Source: Agrobacterium tumefaciens
Lineage (GTDB): Bacteria; Pseudomonadota; Alphaproteobacteria; Rhizobiales; Rhizobiaceae
Length of the DNA: 64,000 nucleotides
Assembly (NCBI GenBank): GCA_017744915.1
Contig: JAGIAH010000016.1
Span: 1-64,000 of the forward strand
Reading direction: 5' to 3'
A model generated the notes under the pieces. The model was not told the DNA's origin, did not search any database, and worked only from the letters and a program-made list of their open reading frames with translations. Made by a program: the position numbers and the translations under genes. Numbering within the stretch: position 1 is the first letter of the stretch; each line of letters starts with the position of its first letter. This document shows, piece after piece, positions 16,374-20,371 of this stretch.

Positions 16374-16754
16374 ATGAAAAATGTTGCTTTCTATTTCTTC
16401 GCAGCGGCCGTGCTGTGCGCCACGGCCGGAATGATCTGGGGCATCCAGATGTCGGTTTCCGAAGACCATTCGCTGTCCATGGCCCATGCGCATCTCAATC
16501 TCGTCGGCTGGACGACACTTGGCCTGTTCGGCCTTTATTACACTGTGACGCCGGAGGCCGACGGCACGGTGCTTTCGAAGGCGCATCTCGCCATTGCCCT
16601 TGCCGGCGTTCTCTGTCTCGTGCCCGGCATCGTCATCGTCCTGACCAGCGGCGCACGGGTTCTCGTGGCGATTGGATCGATCCTCACCGTCATTTCCATG
16701 CTGATCTTTCTGGTGACCGTGGCAAGAAACGGCATAGGCCGCAGGCCCGCCTGA
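16374..16754 (+). CDS. Small four-helix membrane protein resembling a COX1-superfamily fragment
   Basis: 126 residues with four hydrophobic helices: residues about 4-26, 40-60, 70-90 and 97-117. The motif MAHAHLNLVGW (about 36-46) resembles the heme-ligand helix of the heme-copper oxidase subunit I/NorB superfamily, but the protein is far too short to be a catalytic subunit. Proteins of this kind are annotated as cytochrome oxidase subunit I-like in Rhizobiales, and their role is unknown. The ribosome-binding site is gaggggga, 8 bp before ATG. It is monocistronic. Confidence 0.75.
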   Translation: MKNVAFYFFAAAVLCATAGMIWGIQMSVSEDHSLSMAHAHLNLVGWTTLGLFGLYYTVTPEADGTVLSKAHLAIALAGVLCLVPGIVIVLTSGARVLVAIGSILTVISMLIFLVTVARNGIGRRPA

Positions 16755-16759
16755 CACGG

Positions 16760-16793
16760 CCGGGCAGGCTCTTGACCAACGGCCTGCCCCGCG
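16760..16793 (+). terminator. Hairpin behind the COX1-like gene
   Basis: CGGGCAGG (about 16761-16768) pairs with CCTGCCC (about 16784-16790) just after the stop at 16754. There is no T run, so termination is only possible. Confidence 0.4.
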
Positions 16794-16807
16794 CCATAAC
16801 GCAAGTC

Positions 16808-16837
16808 ATGAAAACGACGATCTGCACCTGCTGCTGA
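16808..16837 (+). CDS. Cysteine-rich leader peptide of cysS (MKTTICTCC)
   Basis: A 10-codon frame encodes M-K-T-T-I-C-T-C-C and then TGA. Three of nine residues are cysteine, and two of them end the peptide. It lies 107 bp upstream of cysS, the cysteinyl-tRNA synthetase gene. Clustered codons for the cognate amino acid in a short upstream frame are the hallmark of ribosome-mediated attenuation. Lack of Cys-tRNA would stall the ribosome at 16823-16834. No strong ribosome-binding site is visible (acgcaag only). Its translation is therefore inferred from codon content, position and the overlapping RNA structure. Confidence 0.6.
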   Translation: MKTTICTCC

Positions 16838-16880
16838 AATAATTTTTGCTGGTTCGCCACCGGCCAGATCGTTTTCGTCT
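16817..16880 (+). promoter_or_regulatory. Putative attenuator structure overlapping the cysteine leader
   Basis: ACGATCTG inside the leader frame (16817-16824) is perfectly complementary to CAGATCGT at 16865-16872. A small hairpin (GCTGGT 16848-16853 with ACCGGC 16859-16864) closes the space between them, and GTTTTCGTCT follows. The left arm overlaps the first Cys codon, so a ribosome stalled on the Cys codons would block this pairing and favour readthrough into cysS. The complementarity is seen; the switching model is inference. Confidence 0.45.
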
Positions 16881-16944
16881 CCCGCAAGGTCCAACAGACA
16901 AACGGTCCGGTCAGGACAATTGACTGCCTTTAGGGAATATCCGC

Positions 16945-18330
<1,386 letters not shown>

Positions 18331-18360
18331 GGAGCGGTTAAGGCTGCGGCTCGCGGCTCA

Positions 18361-18512
18361 CCCCCCTCTGCCCTGCCGGGCATCTCCCCCACAGGTGGGG
18401 AGATTAATCGCGGCTATCGCTCGCCTATCTCTAACGCTGCGGATGGGGCCGGGAGTTTGCATCTTGCCGATCTCCCTCCTTGTGGGGGAGATGCCCGGCA
18501 GGGCAGAGGGGG
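18361..18512. repeat. Palindromic intergenic repeat, family A, copy 2
   Basis: Inverted arms of about 37 bp, CCCCCTCTGCCCTGCCGGGC... at 18361-18400 and its near-complement at 18476-18512, match those at 2231-2368. The middle differs. It fills the gap between cysS and the DUF559 gene. Confidence 0.85.
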
Positions 18513-18593
18513 TAGCCTTCACCACAATCTGCTTGCGGTTTTGAGATAGCTCAACCAATCTGGCGTAAAGTAGCTAAATGACGAGCGCCGATC

Positions 18594-18962
18594 ATGCCGC
18601 ATGCAGACGTAGACCCGATGCATCGCAAATATGCGAAGCAGATGCGGAAAGCGATGACAGATGCCGAGCTGAAGCTTTGGAATGCTATTCGTGCGCATCG
18701 CCTCGACGGCTTAAGTTTCCGCAGACAAATGCCGATTGCCGGTTTTATCGTTGATTTCGCGTGCTCGGATCACCGCCTCGTTGTCGAGGTCGATGGCTCT
18801 CAACATACGTCTGAGGCAGCATTACAATACGATCGTGAAAGAACTGCTCGGCTTCAGAAAGACAGCTGGACAGTCCTCCGTTTCTGGAACGACGATATCC
18901 TCAAGGACATCGACAATGTCTGTCTCCACATCCTGAAAACGGTAAAGGAGGAGCAAATATGA
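18594..18962 (+). CDS. DUF559 endonuclease-like protein
   Basis: 122 residues, full length for DUF559. The Vsr/restriction-endonuclease-like core includes MTDAELKLWNAIR, GLSFRRQMPIAGFIVDFACSDHRLVVEVDGSQH (the D...E-V-D catalytic pattern) and RDxR-like YDRERTARLQ, then WTVLRFWNDDIL. Such proteins are common near repeats and mobile DNA, and their role is unknown. The start could also be the ATG at 18618. Its stop overlaps the first GFA gene by 4 bp, although the two are functionally unrelated. Confidence 0.85.
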   Translation: MPHADVDPMHRKYAKQMRKAMTDAELKLWNAIRAHRLDGLSFRRQMPIAGFIVDFACSDHRLVVEVDGSQHTSEAALQYDRERTARLQKDSWTVLRFWNDDILKDIDNVCLHILKTVKEEQI

Positions 18963-19435
18963 GCATTTATACGGGCGGGTGTCAGTGCGGCGCGGTCCGG
19001 TTTCGCGCGACCGGAGACCTGAAAGACAGTTCCATCTGCCATTGCCGCATGTGCCAGAAGGCCTTCGGGGCCTATTATGCGCCGCTGGTTTCGGTGCGCG
19101 AGGTGGAATTCGAATGGACGCGCGGCGAGCCGAAGCGGTTTCAATCCTCCAGCGTCGTCAAACGTGGCTTCTGCCCCGAATGCGGCACGCCGCTGACCTA
19201 TGAGGCGCCGGATGGCATGGCGATCGCGGCCGGCGCGTTTGACGATCCCGCCGCGCTGCCGCCGACAATCCAATGGGGCGTGGAGCGCAAGATCGATTTC
19301 GTCGACACCCTTCACACGCTGCCCGCCGTTCCCACCGAAGAGGATCTGACACAGGTGGATTATCTCGCCGGCCTCGTCTCCTATCAGCACCCCGACCATG
19401 ACACCGAACAATGGCCGCCGGAGAACAGACAATGA
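18959..19435 (+). CDS. GFA-family zinc protein, first of three tandem copies
   Basis: 158 residues. Zinc ligands of the GFA/CENP-V fold are all present: C8 and C10 (GGCQCGAVRF), C27, C29, C32 (CHCRMCQKAFG) and CPECGTPL near residue 72. The founding member is a glutathione-dependent formaldehyde-activating enzyme, but most family members have no known substrate. Its start overlaps the DUF559 stop and its stop overlaps the next GFA start (ATGA, 19432-19435), so this is one translationally coupled unit. Confidence 0.92.
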   Translation: MSIYTGGCQCGAVRFRATGDLKDSSICHCRMCQKAFGAYYAPLVSVREVEFEWTRGEPKRFQSSSVVKRGFCPECGTPLTYEAPDGMAIAAGAFDDPAALPPTIQWGVERKIDFVDTLHTLPAVPTEEDLTQVDYLAGLVSYQHPDHDTEQWPPENRQ

Positions 19436-19899
19436 GCGAAAGCGGTTTTTCCGGCGGCTGCCAGTGTGGTGCCGTGCGGTTCCATGCGGGCAAGCTCGGC
19501 CGGGCCTCCATCTGCCATTGCCGCATGTGCCAGAAGCACTTCGGCAATTTCTTCGGCGCGCTGGTCACCGCCGATCAGGCGCATCTGACCTGGACACGCG
19601 GCCAGCCCGCCCTCTTCCGCTCCTCGGCAAAAATCCATCGCGGTTTCTGCAGCAAATGCGGCACGCCGCTGACCTATCATTATCCCGGCGGCGTGGAGAT
19701 CGCCATCGGCGCCTTCGATCACCCGGATGAGATCGAGCCGCAGGTGCAGGTCAATATCCACAAGCGCATGCCGTGGATTGAACAGCTATTCTCCAAACCG
19801 GCAATCGAACAGAGCGTCGACGAGGCGGAAATCACCTCCTATCAGCACCCGGATCACGATACGGCCATATGGCCGCCGGGGGATGACGCGGATGAGTGA
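19432..19899 (+). CDS. GFA-family zinc protein, second tandem copy
   Basis: 155 residues from the ATG at 19432; an upstream in-frame ATG at 19411 would add seven residues but lies inside the previous gene. It repeats the motif set GGCQCGAVRF, CHCRMCQKHFG and CSKCGTPLTY, and ends in the same YQHPDHDTAIWPP phrase as copy one. It clearly arose by duplication. The substrate is unknown. Confidence 0.92.
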   Translation: MSESGFSGGCQCGAVRFHAGKLGRASICHCRMCQKHFGNFFGALVTADQAHLTWTRGQPALFRSSAKIHRGFCSKCGTPLTYHYPGGVEIAIGAFDHPDEIEPQVQVNIHKRMPWIEQLFSKPAIEQSVDEAEITSYQHPDHDTAIWPPGDDADE

Positions 19900-20371
19900 T
19901 GTCCAGGCCTTCAGCGGCGGTTGCCAATGCGGGGCGGTGCGTTACCGGATCGATGGCGGCCTGCATTATCCGCATCTGTGCCATTGCCGTATGTGCCAGA
20001 AGGCGGCGGGCAATTATTTCATGCCGCTTGCAGCAAGCAGCCGGGCGCAATTTGAATTGACCCGAGGTGAGGTGTCGTGGTTCCAGTCCTCCGACCTCGT
20101 GCGCCGTGGTTTCTGCGGTCGTTGCGGCACGCCGCTTTTCTACGACCTGCCGGAGGCCGATTTCATCAACATCACCCTCGGTTCGCTGGACGAGCCGGAG
20201 CGGGTAAAACCCGAAGCGCAATCCAATCTTACCGGCAAAATGCACTGGTTCGGCGAACTCGACGGCTTGCCGGTCGAGCCGGAACCTGCAACCGATGACA
20301 GACCTCTACCGGTGAACAACCGGCAGCACCCGGATCACGACACGGCCACATGGCCACCCGAAGGAACATAA
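19892..20371 (+). CDS. GFA-family zinc protein, third tandem copy
   Basis: 159 residues from the ATG at 19892, overlapping copy two by 8 bp. Motifs GGCQCGAVRY, CHCRMCQKAAG and CGRCGTPLFY are kept, as is the terminal QHPDHDTATWPP. Divergence is greatest between the second and third cysteine clusters (SSRAQFELTRGEVSWFQSS), the region likely to contact substrate. A proline iminopeptidase gene follows after 3 bp. Confidence 0.92.
   Translation: MSDVQAFSGGCQCGAVRYRIDGGLHYPHLCHCRMCQKAAGNYFMPLAASSRAQFELTRGEVSWFQSSDLVRRGFCGRCGTPLFYDLPEADFINITLGSLDEPERVKPEAQSNLTGKMHWFGELDGLPVEPEPATDDRPLPVNNRQHPDHDTATWPPEGT

Follow-up and report, generated by a model that had tools for sequence, protein, structure and literature searches.

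Does the short frame that ends Cys-Thr-Cys-Cys in front of cysS, the gene of cysteinyl-tRNA synthetase, act as a leader peptide for this gene in Agrobacterium tumefaciens, and through which RNA structures? The window, i.e., the whole stretch of 64,000 nucleotides that was analysed, contains the following elements around this frame:

16772-16777, + strand: -35-like element TTGACC, which starts 36 nt 5' of the leader ATG, present in 29/29 aligned same-genus loci
16795-16800, + strand: -10-like element CATAAC, starting 13 nt before the ATG, with CATAA in 29/29 aligned same-genus loci
16808-16837, + strand: leader ORF MKTTICTCC*, probably leaderless (from the sequence, the same-genus alignment and the geometry-based selection)
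16927-16937, + strand: cysS ribosome-binding region (CCTTTAGGGAA) with the SD AGGGA, from the sequence
16945-18330, + strand: cysS, cysteinyl-tRNA synthetase, 461 aa (TIGR00435, 445 bits for a cut-off of 340, E=3e-133)

The codons of the leader, read directly from 16808-16837, are ATG AAA ACG ACG ATC TGC ACC TGC TGC TGA. Cys codons are thus found at 16823-16825, 16829-16831 and 16832-16834 (codons 6, 8 and 9, the last two in tandem). The spacer between the leader stop and the cysS ATG (16945) has 107 nt (16838-16944). An earlier note had described a Cys-Thr-Cys-Cys frame 107 bp before cysS; this is exact in the sequence, and the identity of cysS follows from TIGR00435. Upstream, the leader is preceded by an ORF of 126 aa, also on the + strand, which ends at 16754 and has no NCBIfam match in the profile search. 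The leader frame is formally open further 5' (GTG at 16415); this extension overlaps the 3' end of the preceding gene, which is read in a different frame. A pattern scan of the own genome gave nine sites, among which MKTTICTCC is the sole ORF of fewer than 20 codons with more than one Cys.

The conservation of this arrangement was examined at three levels. cysS was found in 119/121 genomes of the family (120 places), 67/71 of the order and 83/86 of the class, the order and class sets including the own genome plus two and one already covered relatives, respectively. In the family, 110 of the 120 places were fetched (30 loci and 80 stretches), and cysS could be located in all but L098, i.e., in 109; the 111 family upstreams of the geometry test described below include three from an earlier same-genus search. 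The rest of the order is represented by 47 of 64 cysS places and the rest of the class by 28 of 82 (in 81 genomes). Within the genus, 29 of 30 aligned loci keep TTGACC, CATAA, the ATG, the clustered Cys codons and the stop, and the 30th (L010), missed by the aligning regular expression, also encodes MKTTICTCC. Six further matching genomes were left out of this alignment, among them one (G014) that matched only the start of cysS. Since the frame, the promoter boxes and the Cys codons are kept in these 29 loci while the sequence around the boxes varies, the leader appears to be more than a chance frame.

The selection by geometry alone asks for an ORF of 5-40 codons that starts with ATG and has TTGAC at exactly 35-37 nt from this ATG on the 5' side; Cys content is ignored. 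Such an ORF exists in 122 of the 158 non-redundant cysS upstreams (family and order), i.e., in 88/111 family upstreams and in 34/47 upstreams from other families of the order, where 26 of the 35 families examined have the leader in at least one genome. Cys is present in 122/122 of these ORFs (at least two Cys in 85), compared with 194/428 of the other ATG short ORFs of the same 158 upstreams. The same search gave 1 match on the reverse-complemented upstreams and 0 on the reversed ones. It must be noted that the 122 include L145 and L147, which pass the geometry test, and L126, which has no -10-like box and may be due to chance; among the 36 upstreams without strict geometry, some have relaxed versions (e.g., L067, L076, L144). 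Outside the order, strict geometry is found in 1 of 28 cysS upstreams. This single case (L208) has the Cys leader MNTASIIIICCITR, with leaderless geometry, before cysS.

A scan of public genomes for the form ATGAAAACG, 6-30 nt, TGCATTATYGGCTAGC gave at least 119 stretches, all those listed being just upstream of cysS. Among the matches listed, 119/119 sit 40-250 nt upstream of cysS on the same strand, 116 of them with TTGAC 35-37 nt before the ATG, and the genera represented include Mesorhizobium, Chelativorans, Aminobacter, Nitratireductor, Aquamicrobium, Pseudaminobacter and Aliihoeflea. The earlier note had raised the question of whether a short Cys-clustered frame is kept before cysS across Rhizobiales (Hyphomicrobiales); it is, and a co-evolving RNA fold comes with it (see below). 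On comparative evidence, the leader before cysS is a genuine, widely conserved and functional element.

No leader passes the tests in those genomes of the family in which CysS begins with a G[FY]RG stretch ahead of L.NTM (L072, L082, L087, L088, L090, L096, L109, L120, L130). These genomes could be a natural loss set for comparing the control of cysS.

The promoter geometry bears on the way the leader is translated. In the 158 upstreams, the distances from TTGAC to the ATG of short ORFs are concentrated at 35 (31 ORFs), 36 (67) and 37 nt (24), and any other distance from 15 to 79 nt has at most 6 short ORFs. The distance of 35-37 nt, found in 122/158 upstreams, would place the transcription start at the AUG. 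Nearly all leaders of the family have an ATAA-like box 12-14 nt 5' of the ATG; in other families this box is weaker. In the window, the gap between the -10-like box and the leader ATG is 7 nt, which is about where transcription is expected to start; the predicted start is thus probably at, or adjoining, 16808, i.e., at the leader ATG. A generic sigma-70 scan reported no promoter at this site; its pattern requires a T as sixth base of the second hexamer, and CATAAC does not have it. The leader of cysS is probably leaderless, similar to trpL of S. meliloti. The weak ribosome-binding site that the earlier note had held against the leader would then be no difficulty: if the mRNA begins at the ATG, as is probable, a missing site is what is expected of a leaderless mRNA.

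The composition of the peptides was studied in a non-redundant set of 124 leaders, which was picked with a small Cys bonus, unlike the geometry-only set. For non-redundancy it excludes 27 of L001-L030 and L032; two false picks (L125, L082) were removed; its 36 leaders from outside the family were chosen by eye from a scored list, a choice of which the geometry-only count is independent. In the window genus the peptides end Cys-stop (MKTTICTCC, MKTTICCCC, MKITICRCC). In the other genera they have mostly 13-20 codons and commonly end ...C..II(G/R/S), e.g., MKTSFAICGICIIG, MKTVICIICRKIIR and MKTLTTIICICAIIIG. Two Cys are found in 62 leaders, one in 38 and three or four in 24; the last Cys is at codon 11 or later in 89.

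It could be argued that only the promoter and a structured 5' UTR are conserved, the short frame being unused and its Cys codons incidental. The leader is indeed short and the translation of its frame is predicted. This reading nevertheless appears extremely improbable: (i) Cys occurs in every one of the geometry-selected frames; (ii) over the 124 leaders, the Cys count is 240 in frame 0, compared with 6 and 30 in the two alternative frames and with a mean of 62 (maximum 90) in shuffled leader bodies; (iii) both Cys codons are used (TGC 199, TGT 41).

Another explanation is that of an arrest peptide, i.e., the conserved end would stall the ribosome in response to a signal other than Cys-tRNA. 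The third sense codon from the end does encode Ile in 116 of the 119 leaders not ending TGC TGA, but the residue in the final position is not constant (G 54, R 28, S 16, C 6, D 5, A 4), and the last codon is NGC in 103 of the 119, so that this stretch looks RNA-driven. Moreover, the Agrobacterium-type leader lacks the conserved Ile-containing end, and the constant residue is Cys, before the gene of the Cys synthetase. An arrest peptide is accordingly held to be improbable.

At the nucleotide level, the usual end of these 119 leaders is ATT ATY NGC TAG, with ATT itself as third sense codon from the end in 112. The stop is TAG in 108/124 leaders versus 8/46 long ORFs of the window. This end looks like an RNA-level motif.

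The RNA structures involve four further elements of the window:

16808-16824, + strand: RNA strand 1, first nucleotides of the leader ORF, partner of strand 2 (swap test, MFE folds)
16848-16867, + strand: local hairpin of the Agrobacterium-type leader, GCTGGT/ACCGGC in the MFE fold (16848-16853 with 16859-16864)
16865-16878, + strand: RNA strand 2 (CAGATCGTTTTCGT), partner of strand 1 or of strand 3 (swap test, folds, covariation counts)
16896-16911, + strand: RNA strand 3 (AGACAAACGGTCCGGT), which forms the 3' side of the alternative hairpin 2:3 (same-genus conservation, hairpin co-variation)

The terminator scan gives the local hairpin as CTGG/CCAG (16849-16867). Two segments 3' of the leader ORF are conserved, GCTGG..C.GG.CGTTTTCG and AAACG.CCCGGCCAGC, separated by a variable loop; in the leaders of other genera, GCTGG makes up the outer 5' arm of hairpin 2:3.

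In the swap test, the pairing energy of a strand with its own partner is compared with that obtained with partners from other genomes. For pairing 1:2 (leader nt 1-18 with stop+10 to stop+40), the own pairs reach -13.8 vs. -11.0 kcal/mol for swapped ones (p=3e-16, n=124), with 3e-10 in the family alone and 2e-5 in the other families alone; these p-values ignore relatedness, which is shared by the three controls, all null (later window, p=0.49; leader end, 0.82; the 18 nt before the ATG, 0.46). In sliding windows the signal comes only from roughly nt 1-20 of the leader and from stop+6 to stop+36; the co-variation starts at the leader ATG, with none 5' of it. A helix of at least 7 pairs (G-U allowed) is found in 98/124 leaders vs. 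67.7 expected (maximum 74 in 30 permutations) and, in the other families, in 18/36 vs. 10.2 expected (maximum 13). For pairing 2:3 the swap test gives p=1e-4 overall and 1e-6 in the other families; it is null within the family (p=0.37), where the hairpin hardly varies.

Covariation was also counted on an alignment of 112 of 114 leaders (the long L141 and L164 left out) that excludes the Agrobacterium-type Cys-stop leaders. The pairs of 1:2 are formed in 82.5% of cells vs. at most 62% in slid controls, and those of 2:3 in 83.1% vs. at most 47%. The covariation score of 1:2 is 0.132 vs. 0.109 shuffled (0/500 as high) and at most 0.091 slid; that of 2:3 is 0.162 vs. 0.147 shuffled (2/500) and at most 0.069 slid. 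Two-sided changes are above shuffles for both pairings (17 vs. 5.5 for 1:2, 44 vs. 26.6 for 2:3, 0/500 each) but not above slid controls (5-21 and 7-60, respectively), and the pairs of 1:2 that show a two-sided change are no more numerous than in shuffles (108/500). The ranking of columns by mutual information is noisy: most top pairs are not standard, and d51-d91 and u9-d47, of the two helices, come fourth and fifth; the swap test and the covariation counts were therefore relied on in its place.

Folding calculations complete these counts. The 1:2 helix is present in the free MFE fold of 30/31 same-genus leaders, and 2:3 forms in 20/31 when nt 1-36 are masked; 2:3 is absent from the window leader's own fold with this masking, and the fold of the window leader does not exceed shuffled sequences in stability (z -0.29). 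Ensemble energies are close, with means over the 124 leaders of -57.6 with 1:2 enforced and -56.4 with strand 1 masked. On comparative grounds, both pairings can be regarded as conserved features of the locus, as can the Cys frame and the promoter-to-ATG geometry. As strand 2 can pair with only one of strands 1 and 3 at a time, two exclusive RNA folds are predicted; as in an attenuator, these structures are mutually exclusive and one of them involves the leader ORF.

The leader likewise has another mark of an attenuator, a short ORF with cognate codons upstream of a gene for the same amino acid. The reading to which we give rather more credence than to all others is that of a leaderless Cys-codon leader-peptide attenuator of cysS, responsive to Cys-tRNA. 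The transcript would begin with the A of the leader ATG, and its 5' AUG would be the loading site for ribosomes. Strand 2, just after the leader stop, would pair with either strand 1 or strand 3. At low levels of Cys-tRNA, the ribosome would stall at the Cys codons and cover strand 1, leading to the 2:3 pairing and to the expression of cysS; at high levels, strand 1 would be free, 1:2 would form and cysS would be held down, perhaps by pairing of the segment adjoining strand 2 with the cysS Shine-Dalgarno. The exact start site, the ribosome stalling and the direction of control are what we infer here. The suggestion that a Cys-codon leader controls cysS, made in the earlier note, thus gains comparative support, and cysteine-responsive control would be the most economical reading of the conserved elements.

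The position of the Cys codons complicates this scheme. As a rule of thumb, 18 nt are protected behind the ribosome A site. By this rule, a ribosome at the first Cys codon mostly covers strand 1 in 58/124 leaders and leaves it exposed in 52, and a ribosome at the last Cys codon mostly covers it in 8, partly in 27 and leaves it exposed in 89. In the window leader (Cys codons 6, 8 and 9), the stalled ribosome would cover strand 1 at least partly. In the exposed cases the AUG is at least 27 nt behind the stalled P site, which leaves space for a second ribosome. Because the stalled ribosome leaves strand 1 exposed and the AUG has this space, a ribosome queue can be proposed: with late Cys codons, a second ribosome, queued at the AUG, would cover strand 1. 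A start-codon switch is then possible, and is put forward tentatively, in which the RNA 5' end is the sensor arm: the leaderless AUG and the few codons next to it would pair past the leader stop, and the helix setting the output of cysS would at the same time hide the sole ribosome loading site. If true, this would be a ribosome-queue sensor and not a classical attenuator.

The output step concerns one more candidate element:

16880-16889, + strand: candidate anti-SD TCCCGCAAGG, paired with 16927-16936 in the window MFE fold

The window MFE fold has 1:2 and anti-SD:SD together. The SD window co-varies with stop+18 to stop+42, adjoining strand 2 (p=1e-4 and 2e-4, best of 22 SD windows); by subset, p is 4e-4 in the family and there is no signal in the other families (p=0.41). 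The whole-leader duplex swap test for the SD is modest (p=0.014). Computed on the 124 leaders, SD accessibility is unaffected by a ribosome at the first Cys, the last Cys or the stop, and it is the same with 1:2 enforced as with strand 1 masked. Among the 31 same-genus MFE folds, anti-SD:SD is found in 9 free and 4 masked ones; the window leader keeps it even with nt 1-36 masked. Since thermodynamic folding ignores pseudoknots and co-transcriptional order, these nulls are a failed test and not a refutation, and SD sequestration may possibly be the output of the cysS leader. It was rejected as a demonstrated output: the co-variation is modest and seen in the family only, and the accessibility and masked-fold calculations did not support it.

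The same leader and the same sensing could also act on transcription, by Rho-dependent or weak intrinsic termination relieved by ribosome stalling at the Cys codons. This version draws on the folding calculations that leave SD control unsupported, on the one terminator-like stem of the window (16849-16867, then ATCGTTTTCG) and on the related Rhodobacterales motif, for which the authors, in the account consulted, read a terminator (PMC8632094). On the other side, a run of at least 5 T between stop+40 and cysS exists in only 7/124 leaders, i.e., there is no conserved U-run, and the window stem occurs at the rate of shuffles (mean 0.8) with a tail of four T. An intrinsic terminator is ruled out as a conserved feature by the rarity of such T runs, and the transcriptional version as a whole is considered rather unlikely.

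Some neighbouring features deserve mention. Just after cysS lies a palindromic repeat of about 160 nt (18353-18513), with 62 match rows in the own genome, a number that counts many copies twice, once per strand; its Rfam match to mir-1260b (27 bits vs. a gathering score of 81) looks spurious. A DUF559-type small protein is found at 18594-18962 (NF007294, 96 bits, below the cut-off of 218). Three neighbouring ORFs at 18959-20371 have similar GGCQCGAVR...CHCRMCQK motifs, and the third alone has NCBIfam matches, weak and below cut-off. In these motifs the ORFs resemble glutathione-dependent formaldehyde-activating (GFA) proteins.

With regard to novelty, Rfam 15 gives 0 matches at gathering score in the window and in 20 family loci, and, at E up to 1, the sole match near cysS is a spurious microRNA family. 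No report of this cysS leader for Rhizobiales was found in the open-licence literature. A work of Lopatovskaya et al. (2010) reportedly deals with attenuation of amino-acid and aminoacyl-tRNA operons and could contain a Rhizobiales cysS leader. The suggestion of the earlier note that the leader may be new can be retained in part: it was not found in print for Rhizobiales, but a Cys-codon leader of cysS, uORFC-8-2, is published for Rhodobacterales (PMC8632094). In the literature found, the leaderless form would thus be new for Rhizobiales, a Cys leader before cysS being already known. If the proposed reading is true, plant-associated and environmental bacteria would have, for an essential synthetase, an amino-acid gauge that spans the order and is missing from Rfam; it would also offer a compact test case for a leaderless start codon as part of a switch.

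Three known systems can be compared with this leader, uORFC-8-2 being the nearest. As far as its published description was consulted, uORFC-8-2 is a short ORF with Cys codons, accompanied by RNA stems, upstream of cysS in Rhodobacterales, read by its authors as ribosome-mediated attenuation (RNA Biol 2021, PMC8632094). Both systems are from Alphaproteobacteria and have a Cys-codon short ORF before cysS together with RNA stems. They differ, according to the same source, in that: (i) tandem Cys are usually at codons 14-15 in uORFC-8-2, and the window leader has Cys codons 6, 8 and 9; this tandem signature is not shared, the tandem pair being at 8-9 in the window and 38/124 leaders having a single Cys; (ii) the first stem of uORFC-8-2 holds the Cys codons, whereas the pairing strand of the Rhizobiales leader is the start of the ORF; (iii) uORFC-8-2 has a U-run consistent with an intrinsic terminator, whereas 117/124 leaders have no run of at least 5 T after stop+40; (iv) uORFC-8-2 is described for Rhodobacterales only, and the present leader is from Rhizobiales and has leaderless geometry.

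In mycobacteria, leaderless polycysteine short ORFs with contiguous Cys codons are described, the downstream genes being controlled by cysteine supply (Canestrari et al. 2020, per PMC9031893), and candidate Cys leaders before cys operons are reported with no conserved terminator hairpin in the mycobacterial alignment presented (PMC1262725). In being leaderless, these polycysteine ORFs are, as described, the nearest system (PMC9031893). They belong to a different phylum and, in these accounts, precede cys operons and not cysS; here two competing helices co-vary. If the leader of cysS is indeed leaderless, leaderless Cys leaders would exist in two phyla.

The trpL attenuator of Sinorhizobium meliloti is described as leaderless, its AUG being the RNA 5' end, with Trp codons and alternative structures (PMC7298713, PMC10117765). 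In these descriptions it acts on trpE(G), with a transcription terminator yielding the small RNA rnTrpL, whereas the present leader has Cys codons, precedes cysS and shows no conserved terminator. The two leaders, found in the same order, have in common an AUG at the RNA 5' end (predicted here), codons for the cognate amino acid and alternative RNA structures.
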